The position numbers were made by a program, and so were the translations under genes. Shown here piece by piece: positions 15,255 to 21,176 of a stretch of DNA of 48,638 nucleotides (its first letter is position 1; each line of letters starts with the position of its first letter). This DNA is from Malaciobacter halophilus. GTDB taxonomy: Bacteria > Campylobacterota > Campylobacteria > Campylobacterales > Arcobacteraceae. The notes below the pieces were generated by a model. The model searched no databases. It worked only from the letters and a program-made list of their open reading frames with translations, and had not been told where the DNA came from. Location of the stretch: the NCBI RefSeq assembly GCF_002837275.1, contig NZ_NXIF01000011.1, positions 1 through 48,638 on the forward strand, written 5' to 3'.

Positions 15255-16306
15255 AATGCAAATGTAAACAAACATTTAAAATATGTGAACAAGAAAGTAA
15301 GATACACTTCATTTCACTAGTTCCAGAACTAACAAAAAAGCTTGCTTTACTTTTTGATAAATTATCATTAAAGTATAGTAGTTTAGATGGTATTCTTACT
15401 TTAAAACAAGATAATCCAAAAATCTTCTTTGAAGAGAATTTTGATGCTTTAAAAACATACTTTAACTCTTTAGAATTAAAAGAAATAAAAGTATATATAG
15501 AAAATGAAAGACATAAACTCTCTTTTGCTACTATTTTAAGTGCAAAACCTTTAGAAAAATTTTTAAATTTTATTGAAGATAGAACTTTTTTTGATATTTT
15601 AGAAAATAGAAGTATAACTTCACACTTCCAACCAATAATAGATATGAATAGTGAATCTATATTTGGTTATGAAGCACTCGTAAGAGGTGTTATGCCAAAT
15701 GGAGATTTGGTATATCCTGATGTTTTATTTGAAAAATCTGCTAGAAATGATATGGATTTTAACTTTGATAGATTATGTAGAGAAAATGCGTTAAAAACAA
15801 CAGCTGTAAAAAAAGTTGATGCAAAAGTATTTATCAACTTTATTCCAACAACTATTTATGACCCAAAATTTTGCCTTGCTTCTACTGTAAAATGGGCAAG
15901 ACAGTTAGAGTTTGACCCTAAAAATATTGTTTTTGAAGTTGTTGAGACACAAAAAGTTCAAGATAAAGAACATTTAAAAACAATTTTAAACTATTATAGA
16001 GAGCAAGGTTTTTTAATTGCCCTTGATGATGTGGGAGAAGGATACTCTTCTTTAAATATGATAATTGATTTAAAACCTGATATTATAAAAGTAGATAGAA
16101 ACATAATAAACAATATTGACAAAGATGAGATGAAGCGTTCAGTATATAAAGCATTGAGAAATCTTGCTATGGAAAATGATATTAAAATCTTAGCTGAAGG
16201 GGTTGAAACGCCTTATGAATTAGCTACATTAAAAAATATTGGACTTGATTATGCCCAAGGTTACTATTTTGCAAAACCAACAGCGGAGATTGTCAGACAA
16301 ATATGA
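15251..16306 (+). CDS. EAL-domain cyclic-di-GMP phosphodiesterase
   Basis: The 351-residue protein has an N-terminal region of about 115 residues that I do not recognise. It opens with closely spaced cysteines (MKCKCKQTFKIC). A full EAL domain follows: E141-A142-L143 in YEALVRG, INFIPTTIYDP, FEVVE, ALDDVGEGYSS, KVDRNII, AEGVET and AQGYYFAKP. All residues expected for metal-dependent c-di-GMP hydrolysis seem present, so it is probably active. No membrane helix is evident. It overlaps thiE and the photolyase gene by 4 bases each. The Cys-rich start could bind a metal or sense redox state (inference). Confidence 0.9.
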   Translation: MKCKCKQTFKICEQESKIHFISLVPELTKKLALLFDKLSLKYSSLDGILTLKQDNPKIFFEENFDALKTYFNSLELKEIKVYIENERHKLSFATILSAKPLEKFLNFIEDRTFFDILENRSITSHFQPIIDMNSESIFGYEALVRGVMPNGDLVYPDVLFEKSARNDMDFNFDRLCRENALKTTAVKKVDAKVFINFIPTTIYDPKFCLASTVKWARQLEFDPKNIVFEVVETQKVQDKEHLKTILNYYREQGFLIALDDVGEGYSSLNMIIDLKPDIIKVDRNIINNIDKDEMKRSVYKALRNLAMENDIKILAEGVETPYELATLKNIGLDYAQGYYFAKPTAEIVRQI

Positions 16307-17697
16307 AACTTTTTTTAGTGTATCCTCATCAACTATTTGAAAATATAAAGAACCTTAAAGATAAAAAAGTAATTTTAATAGAAGAGCCTCTATTTTTTAC
16401 ACAATATAATTTTCATATTCAAAAACTAGTTCTACATAGAGCTAGTATGAAATTTTATGAAGATTTTTTAAAAACACATAATATAGAAGTTGAATACTTT
16501 GAAGATGAAAGTTATTTAGAAAAATATAAAAATGAAGAGATTTATATTTATGAAGTTTTTGATAACTACTTAGAAAAAAAGATATATAAAAACTTTAAAA
16601 ATATTTATACTTTAAAAAATCCAAATTTCTTAAATGTTGAGGATAAAAGTAAATTTCTACATAACTTTTATGCAAATAGAAGAAAAGAGTTAAATATATT
16701 TATGAGCGAAGGAAAACCTTTGTATGGAAAATATAGTTTTGATAGTGAAAATAGAAAAAAACTTCCAAAAGATATATTTATTCCTGTAACTTTATCTTAT
16801 GAAAATAGATATATAAAAGAAGCAAAACAGTATTGCAAAAAATTTAATTACATAGGAGAAATTGAGAGTTTTAATTATCCTGTAACTTTTCAAGAAGCAA
16901 GACTACAATTTGATTATTTTTTGAAAGAAAAATTTGATAATTTTGGGAACTATCAAGATGCAATAACAAAAAAAGAAGGATTAGAGTATCTTTTTCATTC
17001 AAACTTATCAAGTAGTTTAAATATTGGATTATTGAATTTACATGAAGTAATAGATGCAGCCATAAAAGCAAAAGCTCCATATAATGCAAAAGAGGGTTTT
17101 ATAAGACAAATAATTGGCTGGAGAGAGTTTATGCTAAGAATTTATCAAGATGAAGGTACAAAACTTAGAAACTCAAATTTTTTTAATTTCAAAAAAACTA
17201 TCCCAAACTCTATAATTAATGCAAATAGTGGTATTACAATTCTTGATGATGTAATAAAAAAAATAAATAAAACATCATATGCACATCATATTGAAAGATT
17301 AATGATTTTAGGTAATATATTTGTATTATTAGAGATACATCCCAATGAAATACATAAATATTTTATGAAAAACTTTATTGATGCTTATGATTGGGTAATG
17401 GTTGGCAATGTTTATGCTATGAGTGGATATAGTGATGGAGGAAGTATTACTACAAAACCTTATATTTGTAGTTCAAATTATCTAATAAAAATGAGCGATT
17501 ATAGCAAAAAAGATAGTTGGTGCATTATATTAGATGCTCTTTATTGGAGATTTTTACATAAATATGGACATCTATTCAAAAAAAATCCAAGAATGAAAAT
17601 GCAACTTTCACTTCTTGAAAAGATGTCTGTACAAAAGCTTCAAAATCATATTAAAATTGCAGAAGACTATCTTCAAAAAATAGATTACAAATTGTAA
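16303..17697 (+). CDS. Prokaryotic (6-4)-photolyase/cryptochrome-like protein lacking most Fe-S ligands
   Basis: The 464-residue protein belongs to the photolyase-related group that includes A. tumefaciens PhrB. It shows LFLVYPHQLF at the start, FIRQIIGWREFMLRIY, SYAHHIERLMILGN with the paired catalytic histidines (328-329), WVMVGNVYAMSGYSDGG and LYWRFL. PhrB-type proteins bind FAD and a 4Fe-4S cluster through four cysteines. Here the region that normally reads DYCxxC reads DYSKKDSWC (399-407). Only one of the usual ligands (C407) is evident and the loop is shortened. The earlier cysteine position appears to be Ile or Thr near 311-314. Light-driven DNA repair is likely; cluster loss is inferred from memory-based alignment. 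Confidence 0.85.
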   Translation: MKLFLVYPHQLFENIKNLKDKKVILIEEPLFFTQYNFHIQKLVLHRASMKFYEDFLKTHNIEVEYFEDESYLEKYKNEEIYIYEVFDNYLEKKIYKNFKNIYTLKNPNFLNVEDKSKFLHNFYANRRKELNIFMSEGKPLYGKYSFDSENRKKLPKDIFIPVTLSYENRYIKEAKQYCKKFNYIGEIESFNYPVTFQEARLQFDYFLKEKFDNFGNYQDAITKKEGLEYLFHSNLSSSLNIGLLNLHEVIDAAIKAKAPYNAKEGFIRQIIGWREFMLRIYQDEGTKLRNSNFFNFKKTIPNSIINANSGITILDDVIKKINKTSYAHHIERLMILGNIFVLLEIHPNEIHKYFMKNFIDAYDWVMVGNVYAMSGYSDGGSITTKPYICSSNYLIKMSDYSKKDSWCIILDALYWRFLHKYGHLFKKNPRMKMQLSLLEKMSVQKLQNHIKIAEDYLQKIDYKL

Positions 17698-18980: not shown

Positions 18981-19708
18981 TTATTGTTTATGATAAGAGT
19001 TTTGAAGGGTTTTTAACTTTAGTTTATGATGTCTATTATGATAAATTAAAACCAAGCTCAATATTAAAAGATAGCCCAAATAGTTTAATACTTGAAGATT
19101 TAAAACAGATTCAAACAGATGAAATAAAAGCTAAAAAAGTGCTTGAAGCTATAAAAAAACATTTTCCAAAAAAAGCTTTTCAAACAGTATTAAATATTTT
19201 CATGTGTGATAAAGAGGAGTTTGAATTACACCTATTAAACTATATAATAATTGGCTTTAAAAATAGACATGAACTTTTTAATATAAACAACCATTCAATC
19301 TTTTTTATACAAAACCTTGAAAAACAACTATTTAGAGCAAATCACAAAATGAGTGGTTTTTTAAGATTTGAAGAACTTGAAGATAAAACTTTATATGCAA
19401 AGCTTGAAAGTAGATTTAATCTTTGCTATTTTTTAGGTAAACATTTTTATAAAAGATTAAATAATCAAAACTATATAATCCATGATATAAACAGAAAACT
19501 TGCATTTATAAAAGATGAGAACTCTATTAAAGTACAAAATATTGCTTCATTCGAAGAACCAAGCTTATCAAAAGATGAACAAAAGTTTAAAAAACTATGG
19601 AATAGCTTCTTTAAAGCTGTTAGTATAGAATCAAGAAAAAATGAGAAATTGCAAAAGAGTTTAGTTCCTTTACTTTATAGAACTTATATGACAGAGTTTC
19701 AAAATTAA
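18977..19708 (+). CDS. DUF4130-type partner of the radical-SAM DNA-repair protein (TIGR03915 type)
   Basis: The 243-residue product begins MIIVYDKSFEGFLTLVYDVYYDK, the recognisable opening of this family. It continues with FLRFEELEDKTLYAKLE and LLYRTYMTEF-type ends. The family nearly always sits next to the radical-SAM protein encoded just upstream. Its biochemical role is unknown; a DNA-repair function is a database naming based on context. No catalytic motif can be identified by eye. It ends the photolyase/radical-SAM block, and a separate promoter probably drives the genes that follow. Confidence 0.82.
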   Translation: MIIVYDKSFEGFLTLVYDVYYDKLKPSSILKDSPNSLILEDLKQIQTDEIKAKKVLEAIKKHFPKKAFQTVLNIFMCDKEEFELHLLNYIIIGFKNRHELFNINNHSIFFIQNLEKQLFRANHKMSGFLRFEELEDKTLYAKLESRFNLCYFLGKHFYKRLNNQNYIIHDINRKLAFIKDENSIKVQNIASFEEPSLSKDEQKFKKLWNSFFKAVSIESRKNEKLQKSLVPLLYRTYMTEFQN

Positions 19709-19743: not shown

Positions 19744-19835
19744 TTTATAAAATAGTGATGAAATAACAAAAAAAGTATATTAATACTTTAAATGTTTTAT
19801 TAAAATAATTAAAATATTAGATGAAAGGATAAAAA

Positions 19836-19937
19836 ATGGAAAGTTTAGTACAGGTTTCTATGATTGTTACTTCATTAGCAGTAATTAGTTTAATTTCATC
19901 AGTAGTTTTTGTAAAAGCAAAAACATATAATAAATAG
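19836..19937 (+). CDS. Single-helix micropeptide 1 (33 aa)
   Basis: A short frame reads MESLVQVSMIV, then TSLAVISLISSVVFV, ending KAKTYNK. It consists of one hydrophobic helix of about 23 residues with a basic tail, the form of a small inner-membrane peptide. AAAGGA at 19824-19829 is ideally spaced. It is followed 15 bases later by a second tiny frame with a matching start (MES-VQ). I do not recognise the family. Ribosome site, helix and the paired start argue that it is real. Confidence 0.6.
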   Translation: MESLVQVSMIVTSLAVISLISSVVFVKAKTYNK

Positions 19938-19952
19938 ATTAAAGGGTCTAAA

Positions 19953-20033
19953 ATGGAAAGTATAGTTCAACTTTTAGTTTTATCTACAGCATGGTTTGTT
20001 GCACACTTTAATGCCTTACTTATTTTACCATAA
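19953..20033 (+). CDS. Single-helix micropeptide 2 (26 aa)
   Basis: The frame reads MESIVQLLVLSTAWF followed by VAHFNALLILP, a hydrophobic peptide with a central His-Phe-Asn. AAAGGG at 19941-19946 precedes the ATG by six bases, and the lipocalin ATG follows the stop after 9 bases. Its first six codons closely match those of micropeptide 1, suggesting duplication or a conserved N-terminal role. Function unknown. It could partner the lipocalin in the membrane or act as a leader for it. Confidence 0.6.
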   Translation: MESIVQLLVLSTAWFVAHFNALLILP

Positions 20034-20042
20034 GGAAAAGGT

Positions 20043-20555
20043 ATGTTAAAAAAAAGTTTACTAATTATATTATTACTATTTATATCAGGATGTTCAACTA
20101 AACATCCACCACTAACAACTGTAAATAGTGTAAATATAAACAAATATTTAGGTACTTGGTATGAGATTGCAAGATATGAACATTTTTTTGAAAAAGGATG
20201 TAAAAATGTAACTGCAACTTATACATTAAATAAAGATAATACCTTAAAAGTAGTAAACAAATGTACAAAAATAGATACAAATAAAAAAAGTAGCGCAACT
20301 GGTGTAGCATATGCTACAAGCAAGTCTAATAGTAAGCTAAAAGTTAGCTTCTTTAGACCCTTTTATGGGGATTATTGGATTTTAATGCTTGATAAAAATT
20401 ATAAATATGCAGTTGTAGGAAGTCCTTCACGAGAGTATTTATGGATACTATCAAGAACTTCAAAACTAAATAAAAAAAGTTTAAATAAGATTTTAGAAAA
20501 ACTACCTAAACTAGGTTTTCCTACAGAAAAACTCATTTGGACAATACAAGAATAA
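20043..20555 (+). CDS. Lipocalin family outer-membrane lipoprotein (Blc-like)
   Basis: A lipoprotein signal (FISGC, lipidated Cys17) is followed by the lipocalin opening NKYLGTWYEIARYEHFFEKGC. YWILMLDKNYKYAVVGSPSREYLWILSR follows in the barrel, which is the Blc signature. Length of 170 residues is close to E. coli Blc (177). Bacterial lipocalins bind fatty acids or lysophospholipids at the outer membrane and are often stress-induced. The residues KHPPL after the lipidated Cys do not include Asp at +2, so outer-membrane sorting is expected. It is followed one base later by the TIGR03643-type gene. Confidence 0.93.
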   Translation: MLKKSLLIILLLFISGCSTKHPPLTTVNSVNINKYLGTWYEIARYEHFFEKGCKNVTATYTLNKDNTLKVVNKCTKIDTNKKSSATGVAYATSKSNSKLKVSFFRPFYGDYWILMLDKNYKYAVVGSPSREYLWILSRTSKLNKKSLNKILEKLPKLGFPTEKLIWTIQE

Positions 20556-20556
20556 T

Positions 20557-20844
20557 ATGATAAAAAGAAAAATTGATAAAATACTTTTAAGAAAAAAATC
20601 TTTAGATGAGAGTATGCAAGAGCATGACTTAAATAGACTAATTGAAATGGCATGGCAAGATAGAACTACTTTTGATGCAATTTACTTACAATATGGATTA
20701 ACTGAAAATCAAGTAAAAAATAGAATGAGAAAATTAATTAGTAAAAAAGCTTATAATAGATGGAGAAAAAGAGTTCAAAAAAGAGCTACTAAACATAAAA
20801 AGAAGCTATATCATAAACCTAATAGATTTCAAGGTCCTTGGTAA
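20557..20844 (+). CDS. TIGR03643/DUF2805-type small basic protein
   Basis: The 95-residue, very basic protein has DLNRLIEMAWQDRTTFDAIYLQYGLTENQVKNRMRKLIS, then RWRKRVQKRATKHKKK. This pattern matches the TIGR03643 family as I remember it, found in photolyase/FAD-oxidoreductase clusters of marine bacteria. The middle looks like a helix-turn-helix and the tail like nucleic-acid binding, but function is unknown. It starts one base after the lipocalin stop, so the two are co-translated. Confidence 0.8.
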   Translation: MIKRKIDKILLRKKSLDESMQEHDLNRLIEMAWQDRTTFDAIYLQYGLTENQVKNRMRKLISKKAYNRWRKRVQKRATKHKKKLYHKPNRFQGPW

Positions 20845-20912
20845 TTACTTAACAAAAAAACAATACTAAATAGTTTATAAAAGTGATATAATTAAATAAA
20901 AAGGAAGTTATT

Positions 20913-21176
20913 ATGTTAAAAGAGTTAATTTACACAGGAATTGGAGCTACTTCTTTAATCAAAGATAGAGTTGAAGATGAACTAAAAAAATTGGAAGAGA
21001 AAGGTAAAATTGATAAAGGTGATATAAAAGGTTTTATTGAATCTTTAGAAAAAAAAGGAAAAGAGCAAGATGAAGAGTTTAAAGAACAAATCAAAAAAAG
21101 TATAAAAGAAGCAATAAGTGAACTTGGACTTGTTACTAAAGATGATTTAGAAGAGTTAAAAAAGGAATTAAAATAA
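20913..21176 (+). CDS. Phasin-like coiled-coil protein
   Basis: The 87-residue protein begins MLKELIYTGIGATSLIKDRVEDELKKLEEKGKI. It then becomes a charged helix rich in Glu and Lys, ending DDLEELKKELK. This is the shape of the phasin/poly(3-hydroxyalkanoate) granule-associated family (PhaF-like). Such genes are regularly followed by a UbiB-family kinase, as here. A short amphipathic start may contact a membrane or granule. No polyhydroxyalkanoate genes are visible, so a granule role is unproven. AAAAAGGA lies before the ATG, and its stop overlaps the inferred ubiB start. Confidence 0.75.
   Translation: MLKELIYTGIGATSLIKDRVEDELKKLEEKGKIDKGDIKGFIESLEKKGKEQDEEFKEQIKKSIKEAISELGLVTKDDLEELKKELK

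Follow-up and report, generated by a model that had tools for sequence, protein, structure and literature searches.

A pair of small membrane protein genes

We identify two unannotated, neighboring short frames that head a small putative operon, upstream of its lipocalin gene, in Malaciobacter halophilus; they are almost certainly real genes, and their products look, on comparative grounds, like genus-restricted membrane proteins and not like chance frames or lipocalin leaders. They represent two previously undescribed small membrane protein families, known only as a pair, and routine annotation would miss both genes. The window, by which we mean the whole stretch of 48,638 nucleotides analyzed, is contig C14 of the genome designated G000. 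Six genomes represent the genus, and these hold only three orthologues of the pair (G000, G003, and G001). The features of the region are as follows.

16303-17697: DPRP photolyase-like gene, upstream of the pair
19766-19806, plus strand: putative promoter-like block ACAA-N8-TATTAA-N17-TAAAAT, from alignment, in a stretch common to five sister species, pair or no pair
19822-19835, plus strand: ribosome site of peptide 1, GAAAGGA-TAAAAA-ATG, 6-base spacing, with equivalents in G003 and G001
19836-19937, plus strand: peptide 1, 33 residues, MESLVQVSMIVTSLAVISLISSVVFVKAKTYNK, single hydrophobic helix and lysine-rich C-terminus
19938-19952, plus strand: spacer between the peptides and ribosome site of peptide 2, TAAAGGG-TCTAAA-ATG, 6-base spacing
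19953-20033, plus strand: peptide 2, 26 residues, MESIVQLLVLSTAWFVAHFNALLILP, single hydrophobic helix
20043-20555, plus strand: outer-membrane lipocalin, Blc type (PF08212), downstream of peptide 2
20557-20844, plus strand: DUF2805/TIGR03643 protein, found in all three species with the pair
20852-20892: 41-base promoter-like element ACAA-N8-TACTAA-N17-TATAAT, before the phasin-like gene
20913-21176: phasin-like protein, following the DUF2805 gene

The frames of 33 and 26 residues, the single hydrophobic segment in each, and the ribosome sites are present exactly as a sequence-only reading of the window had described them. The 9 bases that it counted between peptide 2 and the lipocalin are confirmed by a stop codon ending at 20033 and a lipocalin ATG at 20043. 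Both ribosome sites are of the AAAGG type, and the best 19-residue segments score -7.5 (peptide 1) and -11.9 kcal/mol (peptide 2) on the Wimley-White octanol scale. The C-terminal halves are unlike, with small residues and a tail rich in lysine in peptide 1 and, in peptide 2, W-x3-HFN and no positive charge; peptide 1 also has an N-terminal acid. Each peptide, in 3 of 3 species, is shorter than 50 residues and contains one membrane-length hydrophobic segment, as expected of a single-pass small membrane protein.

The same reading had taken the two for a duplicated small membrane protein. Conserved frames and ribosome sites uphold the second half of that description; the duplication is not borne out, with likeness confined to the first 11-16 residues. 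Residues 1-16 alone align by BLASTP, at an E value of 0.005 for a single comparison, hhalign joins columns 1-11 only (probability 56%), and shuffle tests between the peptides exceed 5% in 6 of 9 species combinations. Significant similarity over most of the length, which would mark a tandem duplicate, was not found. An old duplication of one peptide into the other stays possible but unproven, because the starts agree within a genome (MES/MES in G000 and MEN/MEN in G001).

Conservation and selection

The tandem pair recurs in the same order in two of the five other species of the genus. At the same place, G003 encodes MQNMPQILMIIGSLSVVSLVSSLFFLKK and MENLIQLSILSVTWIAAHFNILLILQ, with a peptide 1 orthologue of 28 residues, and G001 encodes MENLLLNVFFILASGITISAISSIFYLKK and MENIITIFFISLTWFTVHFNVLFLLP, with one of 29 residues. 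The DNA has diverged, with nucleotide identity of the pair at 60-73% between species, yet frame, start, ribosome sites, hydrophobic segments, and key residues are retained in all three. The initial reading had placed both peptides below usual gene-finding limits and had named, as the observation that would count against them, close relatives in which the frame or the ribosome sites are lost; both are kept in G003 and G001, and this conservation in sister species backs the small membrane proteins it proposed. In G002, G004, and G005 the entire insert is absent, not decayed.

Residues S11, W14, H18-F19-N20, L22, and L25 of peptide 2 are invariant among the three orthologues, and S11, W14, H18, L22, and L25 share one helix face. 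Peptide 1 keeps the small residues S13, S18, S21, and S22. In profile searches the peptide 2 copies from these genomes reach 1e-15 to 1e-16, well ahead of any other match, with the G001 and G003 rows included in the profile; a two-row profile built without G001 found the G001 copy at 3.8e-6. We compared both peptides with a neutral simulation that matches the observed substitutions in number and kind and asks for a stop-free peptide as similar as that observed. For peptide 2 against G001, none of 20,000 trials succeeded in each of four directional comparisons, and between G000 and G003 the observed similarity was reached in 0.1-0.7% of trials. The corresponding P values for peptide 1 are 0.0006-0.010, and its dN/dS estimate, from ~18 synonymous sites and by a rough method, lies near 1. 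Selection on the sequence of peptide 2 is clear, and that on peptide 1 is weaker and less certain.

Both peptides are single copy. Beyond the genus, family-, order-, and class-wide profile searches for relatives returned only weak matches; L073, the match that we examined closely, runs antisense to a response regulator gene. Degenerate DNA patterns in genome and viral contigs matched only in unrelated or short spurious frames, and back-translation scans of the peptides gave nothing, tblastn confirmation being weak for a 26-residue hydrophobic query. Neither peptide matched Pfam at E up to 10, NCBIfam at E up to 1, or PHROGs, and Rfam gave no match. A profile search of the PDB returned nothing for peptide 2 and, for peptide 1, a non-significant resemblance to photosystem II PsbT (E 0.81). 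Very short diverged proteins escape sequence search, and absence outside the genus means that relatives are not detectable.

History of the insert

The block upstream of the pair is common to all six genomes and is a diverged copy of the 41-base element found before the phasin-like gene. A search with ACAA-N{5,9}-TACTAA-N{16,18}-TAWAAT finds this pattern with a single 41-base geometry at two positions: ahead of the lipocalin (G002, G004, and G005) and ahead of the phasin-like gene (G000 and G003). The other genome matches are dispersed or fall in a single stretch found in several of the genomes. The element at both sites of the cluster possibly reflects one dedicated regulator. Separately, G001, G002, G004, G005, and G007 carry an opposite-strand frame of 211-232 residues in the interval from TIGR03915 to the promoter (L065 8555-9250, plus strand, and the same place in L123, L124, L125, and L126); G000 and G003 lack it.

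The pair therefore lies between a promoter-like block and an operon that are both older than it is. When three neighboring proteins are concatenated, the resulting tree has G001 branching first within the genus (support 88) and groups G002, G004, and G005 together (support 85). Given this branching, the simplest history would place the pair in the ancestor of the genus, with the pair lost once and the lipocalin lost once, in G001; transfer is possible. The pair is dispensable, being missing from half of the genus. Because it was gained or lost within one genus, at a site flanked by its operon and a conserved promoter-like block, it offers a tractable case for studying the origin of tiny membrane proteins and their entry into operons.

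This position, and the lack of detectable relatives outside the genus, would also suit young genes specific to the lineage, born de novo when AT-rich intergenic DNA lay behind an active promoter, whose membrane peptides are weakly selected and have only generic effects. A precedent comes from yeast, where thymine-rich DNA can give adaptive membrane proteins (PMC7005711). We nevertheless consider this account unlikely as a full explanation: specific residues of peptide 2 are kept between species whose core proteins are ~81% identical, which argues for selection on sequence and not merely on hydrophobicity. A de novo origin as such is compatible with the function we propose below, and the two could be true together.

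Relation to the lipocalin gene

The pair is not tied to the lipocalin, because G001 has the pair alone and three species have the lipocalin alone. The G001 genome holds no lipocalin match, and there the pair directly precedes DUF2805; in G002, G004, and G005 the lipocalin follows straight after the promoter-like block. Where both occur, the lipocalins are 82% identical (G003 against G000), and the gap from the peptide 2 stop to the lipocalin ATG is 9 bases in each. The G003 gap (AGTGTTTAC; L002, minus strand, around 2019-2007) holds no ribosome site. This exact spacing and the lack of a ribosome site in G003 suggest that lipocalin translation is probably coupled to peptide 2 in G000 and G003, in addition to any role of the peptides themselves.

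Taken further, the same gap could mean that the frames are leader peptides that set lipocalin translation by coupling or attenuation, with products that matter little; the G003 lipocalin may depend on ribosomes finishing peptide 2. We regard this as quite unlikely, as the amino acids of peptide 2 are conserved above neutral expectation and both peptides are kept in G001, whose genome has no lipocalin. Nor does the region resemble an attenuator: there are 0 terminators before the gene, the intergenic gap is just 9 bases, the fold z of -0.78 is not unusual, Rfam offers no match, and no stretch repeats the codons of a single amino acid.

Less favored readings of the frames

In size and hydrophobicity the peptides would fit type I-like toxic hydrophobic peptides repressed by antisense RNA. 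TimP/TimR of Salmonella lends the reading a precedent: a toxic protein, small and targeted to the membrane, that a small RNA represses (PMC7667032). It is very unlikely here: the peptides are single copy with strong open ribosome sites, no unusual structure, and no Rfam match, and they are two different peptides, always together, with a conserved promoter-like block on one side and an operon on the other.

By analogy with cytochrome b559, a minimal cofactor-binding module might also be imagined, in which His18 of peptide 2 (with W14) would ligate heme or contact quinone, peptide 1 would pack against it in a two-peptide manner, and reducing power would pass to a lipocalin-linked membrane antioxidant system; we hold this to be highly improbable.

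We scanned both strands for ATG frames of 20-45 residues that follow a ribosome site and contain a 19-residue segment of strong hydrophobicity. Eight frames in the whole 48.6 kb window qualify, and peptides 1 and 2 are the only neighboring two. A similar scan of 30 DUF2805 loci from the family found frames only in G000, G001, and G003, with one extra inside the lipocalin region of G003. That both frames are chance ORFs is barely credible: hydrophobic frames are frequent in AT-rich DNA, and six others lie in the window, but 0 of 3000 shuffles of the 334-base intergenic stretch yield two such frames, and conservation of the pair in two other species already contradicts chance.

Proposed function

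We propose, as a reading with an even chance of being right, that the peptides are two co-expressed single-pass inner-membrane miniproteins that form a heteromeric accessory or regulatory pair tuning a larger membrane protein. We infer the transcription unit, translation, membrane topology, pairing, partner, and stress role as follows. The peptides would be co-transcribed from the promoter that drives the lipocalin and DUF2805 genes. Given the N-terminal acid and C-terminal lysines of peptide 1, its insertion would leave the C-terminus on the cytoplasmic side; under the positive-inside rule, lysines at the end of peptide 1 point to this orientation. Peptide 2 would form a helix without positive charge that presents the conserved S-W-H-L-L face. 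The residues on one face of peptide 2 and the small residues of peptide 1 suggest packing against each other or against a partner, and the two peptides are found only together in the three genomes. Most likely the two would assemble into a small hetero-oligomer and, in the way of other accessory miniproteins, bind a larger membrane protein and tune it.

The setting may be envelope or photo-oxidative stress, because the neighbors are photolyase-like, radical SAM repair, lipocalin, and DUF2805 genes. Upstream of the pair lie genes for an EAL protein, the DPRP photolyase-like protein, a TIGR03916 radical SAM protein, and TIGR03915 (gene end at 19708). DPRP and DUF2805 co-occur: both are present in G000, G001, G003, and G004 and both are absent in G002 and G005. 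The pair is confined to genomes with both, but is not in all of them. This neighborhood does not prove a shared role: in G001 the pair occurs although the lipocalin is missing, and G004 combines DPRP, lipocalin, and DUF2805 but lacks the pair. The genes beside the pair encode no known membrane complex.

Comparison with known systems

In Pseudomonas, photolyase/CryB clusters that include unknown genes are light-induced and LitR regulated (PMC9758184). They share with our locus a photolyase-like gene and unknown genes in one neighborhood (PMC9758184), and differ in that no LitR was identified here and no counterpart of the pair is known. LcoA-BcnA, in which a cytochrome b561 membrane protein is encoded upstream of a YceI-type lipocalin (PMC9113575), offers a second parallel: a single operon in which a membrane protein gene immediately precedes a lipocalin gene, in a stress setting (PMC9113575). 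Here, in contrast, two miniproteins without a domain match precede a Blc-type lipocalin of PF08212, and G001 has no lipocalin.

Small membrane proteins can regulate larger processes (PMC11539335). Within the phylum, the closest precedent is CioY of Campylobacter jejuni, a helix of 34 residues that binds CioA (PMC11955535); CydX of E. coli has 37 residues (PMC4325964). Both are single-peptide small subunits of bd-type oxidases, whereas the pair comprises two peptides with no Pfam or NCBIfam match and no adjacent oxidase genes; beside it lie TIGR03916, TIGR03915, lipocalin, DUF2805, and phasin-like genes, and no cydAB or cioAB. CioY and CydX resemble the pair in being single hydrophobic helices of fewer than 40 residues, encoded in operons and easily overlooked in annotation (PMC11955535; PMC4325964).
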